This document shows positions 13,792 through 51,369 of a stretch of DNA of 64,000 bases, one piece after another. The notes under the pieces are model-generated. The model saw nothing but the letters and a program-made list of their open reading frames with translations, did no database searches and was not told the DNA's origin. The DNA comes from Halococcus saccharolyticus DSM 5350 (GTDB lineage: Archaea; Halobacteriota; Halobacteria; Halobacteriales; Halococcaceae): assembly GCF_000336915.1 (NCBI RefSeq), contig NZ_AOMD01000030.1:262980-326979 (forward strand), in the 5' to 3' direction. The position numbers and the translations under genes are program-made. Numbering within the stretch: position 1 is the stretch's first letter; each line of letters opens with the position of its first letter.

Positions 13792-14307
13792 ATGAGCAAA
13801 ATCACGTTCCGCGCCGACGACGAGCTCATCGACGAGCTCGAGTCGCTCGACGCCTCGAAGAGCGAGGCGATGCGCGAGGCGCTCCGGGCATACCTCGAGA
13901 GCGCGCGGGACGCGGACCCCGACAGCCTCGACGATCTCGTCAGACAGCGCGTCGACGCGATCGTCGACGAACGCCTCGGCGCGTTTACGCCGTCGGAGCC
14001 ACAGGACATCAACGTAAACATCGCTCTCGAAGGCGCGTCCGACGCATCCGCATCCACCGACGCGCCGGCGCGTAAGACGGAGACGGCCGAAGCGGAAACG
14101 GACGTGCAAACGGGCTCTGACGCGCGTAAAACATGTGCCCAATGTGGCGAAGAAGTCGGTTCAGAACACGTTTACTGTCCGAACTGTGGGGAGAAGGCGA
14201 CCCGCCGGGTGTTCTGTGACTGCGGCGACGAGCTCCGCTCGGACTGGGTGTTCTGCCCGAGCTGTGGCCGACGAACCCCCGCTGCGGACGTTCTCGATGG
14301 TGCGTAA
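13792..14307 (+). CDS. cdrL: Ribbon-helix-helix / double zinc-ribbon regulator CdrL
   Basis: The 171-residue protein opens with a ribbon-helix-helix DNA-binding domain (ITFRADDELIDELESL, then SKSEAMREAL) within residues 1-45. An acidic linker follows, then two C-terminal zinc ribbons: CAQCG...CPNCG and CDCG...CPSCG. This layout and its place directly before cdrS-ftsZ2 match CdrL, the long cell-division regulator described in Halobacterium salinarum, which acts on the cdrS-ftsZ2 promoter. The ATG at 13792 is chosen since residues upstream are not part of the RHH fold. Several GTAAAC/GTAAGAC sites occur inside and after the gene. Confidence 0.9.
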   Translation: MSKITFRADDELIDELESLDASKSEAMREALRAYLESARDADPDSLDDLVRQRVDAIVDERLGAFTPSEPQDINVNIALEGASDASASTDAPARKTETAEAETDVQTGSDARKTCAQCGEEVGSEHVYCPNCGEKATRRVFCDCGDELRSDWVFCPSCGRRTPAADVLDGA

Positions 14308-14340
14308 ACGTTCACACAGCCTCCAAAACGCCGTTTACGC
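14302..14340. promoter_or_regulatory. Inverted pair of GCGTAAACG sites after cdrL
   Basis: GCGTAAACG at 14302-14310 overlaps the cdrL stop codon; its reverse complement CGTTTACGC lies at 14332-14340. Center-to-center spacing is 30 bases, about three helical turns, suiting dimers bound on one face of the DNA. Candidate CdrL/CdrS operator. Confidence 0.45.
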
Positions 14341-14355
14341 GGCGATCCGGACGTT

Positions 14356-14427
14356 CGTCTTACGCTGGCCGGAAGTTTTATTACATCTGGGCTGATTGCA
14401 TACGCCTGCGTAAGACGGCCGTCTTAC
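14356..14427 (+). promoter_or_regulatory. cdrS-ftsZ2 promoter with GTAAGAC operators
   Basis: A half-site CGTCTTACG (14356-14364) precedes a TATA-like TTTTATTA (14376-14383), and a perfect 18-base palindrome, GTAAGAC GGCC GTCTTAC (14410-14427), falls where transcription should start, about 27 bases downstream. A further GTAAGACG lies at 14477-14484. A ribbon-helix-helix dimer bound at the palindrome would block initiation, consistent with autoregulation of cdrS-ftsZ2. Confidence 0.55.
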
Positions 14428-14512
14428 ACCGACGCCGATCGATGCCGACGGTGTCCACGTCGTGCGGTTTCGGCGTGTAAGACGCGCGGTCGCCTAAACG
14501 GAGGACCCACCC

Positions 14513-14686
14513 ATGGAGCGTGTGACACTACGGATCCCGAAACAGCAGATCGCGGAGGTCGAACAGATGGTCGAACACGGCGAGTACCCGAATCGTAGCG
14601 AGGCGATCCGGGCGGCGGTCAGGGAGATGGTCGCCGAGGAGGGTCGGGACGAACCCCCGACCAAGCGGCCGTTCGCGAGGGCCTGA
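14513..14686 (+). CDS. cdrS: Short ribbon-helix-helix cell-division regulator CdrS
   Basis: A 57-residue protein that is almost wholly one ribbon-helix-helix domain ([20 protein letters not shown], then [15 protein letters not shown]) with a short basic tail. It matches the haloarchaeal cell-division regulator CdrS, known in Halobacterium to control ftsZ2 and other division genes. Its stop is two bases before the ftsZ2 ATG, so the two form one operon. The leader from the inferred start site is about 100 bases. Confidence 0.93.
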
Positions 14687-14688
14687 CA

Positions 14689-15840
14689 ATGCAGGACATC
14701 GTGGAATCGGCGCTCGAAAACGCGGAGAAAGAGCAACGGCAACGCGACGAGTCCGATCTCGACGAGTTCGGCGACCCCCGGATCGTGGTGGTCGGCTGTG
14801 GCGGTGCGGGCAACAACACCGTCAACCGGCTCCACAACATTGAGGTCGAGGGTGCCGAGACCATCGCGATCAACACCGACAAGCAGCATCTCCAAATGAT
14901 CCGGGCCGACACCCGGATCCTCGTCGGCAAATCGCTCACCCAGGGGCTCGGTGCGGGCGGCGACCCCGAGATGGGCGAGCGCGCGACCGAGATGGCCCAG
15001 TCCACGATCCGCGAGGTGCTCTCCGGCGCGGACCTCGTGTTCGTCACCGCGGGGATGGGCGGCGGCACCGGCACCGGAGCCGCGCCCGTGGTCTCGAAGA
15101 TCGCGAGCGACGAGGGCGCGATCGTGGTCGGGATGGTCTCGACACCGTTCAACGTCGAGCGCGCGCGAACAGTGAAGGCCGAGGAGGGGCTCGAAGAGCT
15201 CCGCAACGAGGCCGACTCGATCATCGTGCTCGACAACAACCGCCTGCTCGATTACGTTCCGAACCTCCCGGTCGGCAAGGCGTTCTCGGTGATGGATCAG
15301 CTCATCGCGGAGACGGTGAAGGGGATCGCCGAGACGATCACCCAGCCCTCGCTGATCAACCTCGACTACGCCGACATGACCGCGATCATGAATCAGGGTG
15401 GTGTGGCGGTCATGCTGGTCGGCGAGACCCAGGACAAGAACAAAACCGAGGAGGTCGTGAAGGACGCGATGAGCCATCCGCTCCTCGACGTCGATTACCG
15501 GGGAGCGTCCGGCGGCTTGGTCCACATCACCGGCGGCCCCGACCTCACTCTGAAGGAGGCCGAGGCGATCGCCGAGCGCATCACCGACCGGCTCGAACCT
15601 AGCGCGAACGTCATCTGGGGCTCGCGCATCCGCGAGGAGTACAAGGGCAAGGTCCGAGTGATGGCGATCATGACCGGCGTCCAGAGCGCTCAAGTCCTCG
15701 GTCCCGACGCCCAACAGCAGGCTGATCGGTCGCGCGAGGCGCTCGCAGCCGAATCGTTCGACACGAGCTACGCCGAGAGCGACGGCGGCCGCGACGTGCC
15801 GGACCACGACACCAACGACGATCTCGACGTCATCCGCTGA
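14689..15840 (+). CDS. ftsZ2: Cell division protein FtsZ2
   Basis: Tubulin-superfamily GTPase that, with FtsZ1, builds the mid-cell division ring; FtsZ2 is needed for constriction in Haloferax. The 383-residue product has GCGGAGNNT at the N-terminal phosphate loop, the tubulin signature GGGTGTG (124-130), and the T7 loop NLDYADM that supplies the catalytic aspartates. The start [16 protein letters not shown] and the short acidic C-terminus ending LDVIR are FtsZ2 features rather than FtsZ1. Confidence 0.96.
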
Positions 15841-51352: not shown

Positions 51353-51369
51353 GTAAACCGTCGGTTTAC
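51353..51369 (-). terminator. Hairpin downstream of rpsJ
   Basis: GTAAACCG T CGGTTTAC, eight-base arms around one base, with a second stem CGGAACC/GGTTCCG at about 51404-51420, lies after the rpsJ stop. This may end the tuf-rpsJ transcript, though archaeal terminators usually need only a T-tract, so the role is uncertain. The rest of the 262-base gap to the rhomboid gene has no gene. Confidence 0.3.

Follow-up and report, generated by a model that had tools for sequence, protein, structure and literature searches.

A class-wide array of GTAAGAC-type half-sites around cdrL-cdrS-ftsZ2, a candidate operator of the ribbon-helix-helix regulators encoded there in haloarchaea

The locus and its half-sites

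In the window, as we call the whole stretch of 64,000 nucleotides of Halococcus saccharolyticus DNA that was analysed, a tRNA-Tyr gene on the opposite strand precedes three genes of the forward strand, cdrL (13792-14307), cdrS (14513-14686) and ftsZ2 (14689-15840). CdrL combines a ribbon-helix-helix (RHH) N-terminus, a variable linker and a double zinc ribbon, the Pfam families RHH_1, CdrL_M and DZR all being matched above their cut-offs, and it was detected in 111 of the 116 sampled genomes of the class. CdrS is an RHH protein of 57 amino acids (RHH_1, E 2.6e-8), and FtsZ2 carries the Tubulin/FtsZ and FtsZ_C domains. As both cdrL and cdrS match RHH_1, the array described here is encoded beside genes for RHH regulators. 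The inferred TATA box of the cdrS-ftsZ2 promoter, TTTTATTA, lies at 14376-14383 on the forward strand. Scans for bacterial promoters and terminators gave no matches.

The original prediction saw in this region an array of GTAAGAC and GTAAAC sites, and every site that it named exists, with small shifts of coordinates. Within the coding sequence of cdrL are found a GTTTAC half-site (13983-13988, reverse strand), present in all nine of the genus g1 cdrL genes compared; a GTAAAC (14014-14019, forward), which encodes the Val-Asn of an NVN motif; CGTAAGAC (14071-14078, forward; GTAAGAC core 14072-14078), which encodes an Arg-Lys-Thr (RKT) of the linker; and the variant CGTAAAAC (14125-14132, forward), a second RKT-encoded half-site that falls under the Arg-codon test reported below. 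This last one had been noted at 14123-14130, and it is real, its true core being GTAAAAC at 14126-14132, a few bases off. A further GTTTAC, absent from the earlier list, occupies the His-Val-Tyr-Cys codons (14170-14175, reverse); it is present in three of nine g1 genes and may be incidental. A GTAAAC spans the cdrL stop codon (14304-14309, forward), followed by GTTTAC (14333-14338, reverse) and, just 5′ of the BRE/TATA element, by GTCTTAC (14357-14363, reverse). Then comes a palindromic candidate operator, GTAAGAC-GGCC-GTCTTAC or GTAAGACGGCCGTCTTAC, at 14410-14427, exactly the perfect 18-base palindrome that had been claimed. In the leader, a last GTAAGAC (14477-14483, forward) is complementary, as RNA, to the palindrome's right half.

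Ten of the 17 GTAAGAC, GTCTTAC, GTAAAC and GTTTAC cores of the window fall within these 0.6 kb, and seven in the other 63.4 kb. Taken alone, GTAAGAC is weakly enriched over the window (6 occurrences for 2.7 expected, a number reached in 6 of 100 shuffles), so that the argument rests on clustering and on comparison between genomes. A chance origin of the sites was considered and rejected, given the uniqueness of the palindrome in the genome, its once-per-genome recurrence and the clustering of the cores. Elsewhere in the window, at 51353-51369, an inverted pair GTAAAC-CGTCG-GTTTAC has the 11-bp centre spacing of the cdrS operator and could equally be an intergenic hairpin. A pattern search for the spaced same-strand arrangement CGTMTTAC-N6-CGTMTTAC returned no matches.

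A palindrome found once per genome

Genome-wide counts were obtained by pattern searches, the host genome being 3.45 Mb in 36 contigs. The palindrome is present there as a single copy, and just one further position comes within two mismatches of it. Across the class, GTAAGAC-N4/5-GTCTTAC is found exactly once per genome in 112 of 116 haloarchaeal genomes, and a reversed control pattern has zero matches in the 116. The remaining four carry variants at the same place, with a spacer of 2, a spacer of 3, GTGAGAC, or a second half GTATGAC. The palindrome lies 86 to 135 nt 5′ of the cdrS start, and was always upstream of cdrS where this was checked. When a collection of genomes was scanned with a 20-base pattern, at least 120 stretches matched, the listed titles being all haloarchaeal or 'uncultured archaeon' (the 'Actinarchaeum halophilum' of that collection is Halocatena halophila, a haloarchaeon); a cdrS start lies downstream in 119 of 120 stretches among those listed. 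The motif search of homologous intergenic regions that had been proposed as a check finds the palindrome again, and finds it at a nearly fixed distance (126 loci) from the TATA-like block, the strongest conserved block on its 5′ side.

Around this centre the other half-sites take preferred places. At 84 of 126 loci one precedes the palindrome by about 52 nt, which is the position of the window's GTCTTAC at 14357-14363, and at 107 of 126 the leader half-site follows it by about 50 nt; a GTCTTAC or GTTTAC stands beside the Shine-Dalgarno region in 108 of 126 loci and is absent from the window's clade. At equivalent positions GTAAAC, GTAAAAC and GTCATAC substitute for GTAAGAC/GTCTTAC, which bears out the treatment of GTAAGAC and GTAAAC as one type of site. 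The view of the sites as one array surrounding the TATA box is supported as well. Half-sites per kb number 24.7 over the 200 nt that precede cdrS, 3.1 within cdrL and 0.2 within the coding sequence of cdrS-ftsZ2.

Short half-sites about one helical turn apart are what an RHH array displays, and the two halves of the palindrome have a centre spacing of 11 bp. Upstream, the half-sites at -57 to -130 from the palindrome clump about 10.5 bp apart (period 10.3-10.5 bp). For genus-unique sites (n=51) this phasing has p = 2e-4. Since a low p was also obtained with one of the control sets, made of permuted words (n=9), the test was repeated with family-unique sites (n=31, p = 2e-4) and with each distinct position counted once (n=25, p = 0.002). 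Relative to the first half of the palindrome, the window's half-site at the cdrL stop codon is centred at -106.5, a distance of about 10.1 helical turns, and that at 14333-14338 at -77.5, which is off phase in the window's clade. The leader and cdrL-internal sites have no clear helical phase with the palindrome, the best period inside cdrL being an unconvincing 11.3 or 9.8 according to the range considered.

Sites written into the cdrL coding sequence

The extension of the array into the coding region of cdrL, which the original prediction had put forward, is supported by tests on synonymous codons. There are 1.46 sites per cdrL gene, as against 0.32 expected from synonymous codon shuffles. 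In 119 cdrL genes we find 85 GTAAGAC/GTCTTAC words, of which 84 are GTAAGAC in one and the same frame, read as Arg-Lys-Thr; RKT is present in 73 of the 119 proteins. The Arg codon of this RKT (CGT AAG AC) is CGT in 98 cases out of 100, and in 320 of 2102 (15%) of the other CdrL arginines. Among the 170 arginines that precede a lysine in 275 control genes, 3.5% are CGT, and of the eight RKT there not one is written CGTAAGAC. A second collection, the species of which may overlap those of the first, gave CGT in 52 of 53. Likewise, the Val codon of Val-Asn is GTA in 78 of 152 CdrL cases, as compared with 78 of 1274 (6%) for other CdrL valines and 7.8% for Val-Asn in control ORFs.

One could object that a constraint on the protein or on its codons, and not a function of the DNA, created these sites. 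Indeed NVN and HVYC are conserved protein motifs, and the GTAAAC and GTTTAC found there are possibly in part incidental. Against this, RKT sits in a linker that cannot otherwise be aligned and that is modelled with low confidence (pLDDT below 50 at 82-93 and 95-109), its Arg codon is CGT in the proportions just given, and Halocatena halophila, which has no cdrL at this place, retains a GTAAGAC at -347. As a general explanation, such a constraint is highly improbable. The simplest reading of these sequences is that the RKT site embedded in cdrL is under selection at the level of DNA, and the tripeptide appears to exist in the linker on account of the DNA site, which would make it a clear example of regulatory DNA lying within a protein-coding sequence. 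We note that CGCAAAAC is a synonymous recoding of CGTAAGAC that leaves the protein unchanged.

An array apparently older than CdrL

In 20 genomes of the same phylum outside the class, the cdrS leader contains GTCNGAC boxes in a strict 11-bp register: spacings of 11, 22, 33, 44 and 55 bp account for 24, 28, 21, 10 and 16 pairs, other distances for 0 to 2. The 22-bp pair pattern has ten matches in this set of genomes, nine of them at cdrS by coordinates. CdrL is reportedly absent from these lineages (PMC7439475). To judge from sequence comparison, the array therefore appears to be older than CdrL in relatives that have cdrS-ftsZ, and we may see there its likely ancestral form outside haloarchaea.

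A related arrangement is found within haloarchaea at another division gene. In most genomes examined, five of genus g25 among them, the ftsZ1 promoter has GTCNGAC-N4-GTCNGAC, exact or slightly changed, just 5′ of its TATA box; that of the window's own genome has a degenerate form. Some ftsZ1 operators have GTA-type halves (GTATGAC, GTACGAC). As CdrS binds about 50 nt 5′ of the ftsZ1 start in Haloferax volcanii (PMC8406309), we infer that these pairs are the published CdrS motif, the logo of which is given as a figure. The exact pair is rare, four genomes having between 1 and 5 copies each, and consequently it does not reproduce all 18 published CdrS sites. The only exact pair of this type in the host genome, GTCAGACGACCGTCTGAC (C11:84538-84555, at 1501-1518 of stretch L022), precedes a gene of unknown function. 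In two genomes of the Haloferax-like genus g25 another one (1501-1518 in both L227 and L228) separates two conserved, divergent genes of unknown function, and is possibly one of the published CdrS targets.

Which protein binds the array

We consider it fairly probable that the array is an operator array for the paired RHH regulators of the locus. The original prediction had CdrL acting on this promoter, and published work fits: in Halobacterium, ChIP-seq of CdrL gave one reproducible site, upstream of cdrS-ftsZ2, the peak being reported without a motif (PMC7439475). A palindrome that exists once per genome, at cdrS-ftsZ2, matches this single target. A reading that involves CdrL only is nevertheless too simple, because the palindrome persists without CdrL and the array appears to be older than CdrL. 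The site is not confined to genomes that have the protein: cdrL is missing in five of the 116 genomes (three families), where the best profile matches are short zinc-ribbon or RHH stretches, and at two further loci, and the palindrome is kept in all. At the haloarchaeal loci L051, L052, L053, L054, L055, L252 and L258 no cdrL is found between tRNA-Tyr, where it was read, and cdrS, contrary to the published view that CdrL is encoded by all sequenced Halobacteria. As the array survives there, autoregulation by CdrS, or another binder, is needed too.

Hence the possibility, to be held tentatively and as somewhat unlikely, that CdrS alone binds the array and autoregulates the operon, CdrL being an accessory recruited via CdrS or by weaker contacts. 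The 11-bp GTCNGAC arrays of relatives without reported CdrL, the apparent precedence of the array over CdrL, the GTAAGAC array retained by cdrL-less haloarchaea and the GTA-type halves of some ftsZ1 operators all agree with it. It has to face the fact that none of the 18 sites found by ChIP-seq of CdrS in Hfx. volcanii is at cdrS (PMC8406309), the very place where Halobacterium CdrL peaks, and only there (PMC7439475); and nearly all haloarchaeal cdrS operators are made of GTAAGAC rather than GTCNGAC, i.e. their half-sites are GTA-A-GAC and do not have, as at ftsZ1, GTC at both ends. The persistence of the array without CdrL could also point to an unrelated transcription factor. This is very unlikely, for CdrL was located by ChIP-seq at the array region (PMC7439475), the half-sites are close to those at ftsZ1, where CdrS binds (PMC8406309), and relatives with CdrS have the same 11-bp geometry. 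In their DNA-reading strands CdrS (MERVTLR) and CdrL (MSKITFR) are nearly identical: both follow the beta-strand pattern [RK]-x-T-x-R, in which position 3 is Arg or Lys. Such a likeness would be expected of two proteins whose half-sites are one base apart. CdrL is likeliest to be the main binder of the GTAAGAC form, and CdrS is probably the ancestral autoregulator and the binder where CdrL is missing; the difference between GTAAGAC and GTCNGAC may be what separates the targets of the two proteins.

A different possibility is a function of the leader sites as RNA: GUCUUACA, the palindrome's right half, would pair with UGUAAGAC, the leader site, to close a structured hairpin controlling translation or mRNA stability, besides or instead of DNA binding. 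In the window this candidate hairpin would extend from 14417 to 14483, and its flanks covary modestly across genera: within families, the flanks of true arms make 2.6 pairs and those of swapped partners 1.85 (P ~0.001). The segment between the arms also folds more stably than its shuffled versions, with a mean z of -1.87, as against -1.01 for a coding control and -0.32 for an upstream control. Ribo-seq data also suggest a post-transcriptional control of cdrS-ftsZ2 (PMC8303175). Both the hairpin and the control it would exert are doubtful, as half-sites also occur on the 5′ side of the promoter, where they take either orientation and keep helical phase, as the arms are invariant and hence have zero covariation, as other leader pairings lack it too, and as the window's leader taken alone is not significantly stable (z -1.23) and has no Rfam match. 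No consensus fold was found beyond the palindrome. For the upstream sites and the palindrome, an explanation by RNA hairpins alone was rejected; for the leader sites, a dual role in DNA and RNA is possible.

A proposed mechanism

Under the operator reading, each 7-bp half-site, of general form GTMNKAC, would accept one RHH dimer. The palindrome would place two dimers about one helical turn apart, just 3′ of the presumed transcription start, and these would nucleate binding at upstream half-sites on the same face of the DNA. Once filled, the array would hold down or tune the transcription of cdrS-ftsZ2, the sign, taken from position only, presumably being repression. The expression control of archaeal division genes is poorly understood, and a candidate operator is now offered, at the level of bases, for the cdrS-ftsZ2 switch. 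One may also imagine, though this is extremely improbable, a deeply conserved nucleoprotein scaffold built on the plan of a plasmid centromere, with RHH protein, 11-bp repeats and tubulin gene, in which CdrS and CdrL assemble across the control region into the cdrL coding sequence; if true, it would couple the state or the position of the locus to FtsZ2, beyond transcription alone.

Comparison with known systems

Autoregulation by RHH proteins is of a known kind, and what is new here is an unusually well conserved form of it, with sites embedded in coding DNA. In bacteria, MetJ, Arc and omega are RHH autoregulators that fill several half-sites along the DNA. The archaeal viral regulators SvtR and AvtR, with their cooperative operators, do the same (PMC5569661). 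Unlike in all of these, two different RHH proteins of one locus would be involved here, one of which has half-sites within its own coding region, and conservation is class-wide. A resemblance exists with parC, the centromere of the plasmid system ParMRC (PMC9426499), where an RHH protein meets 10- or 11-bp repeats 5′ of its operon, next to the gene of a filament protein; the literature describes CdrS and CdrL as regulators of transcription, and the likeness is of architecture only. With the CdrL region of Halobacterium salinarum the array shares its promoter region and the single reproducible genomic site, and the searched text of that report mentions neither a motif nor sites in cdrL nor an ancestry (PMC7439475). 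Finally, the CdrS motif of Hfx. volcanii (PMC8406309) has, as read at ftsZ1, the same GT-N3-AC RHH half-sites in 11-bp pairs near the TATA boxes of division genes. There, GTCNGAC pairs stand 5′ of the TATA box, whereas at cdrS an inverted GTAAGAC pair stands 3′ of it, accompanied by many single sites.
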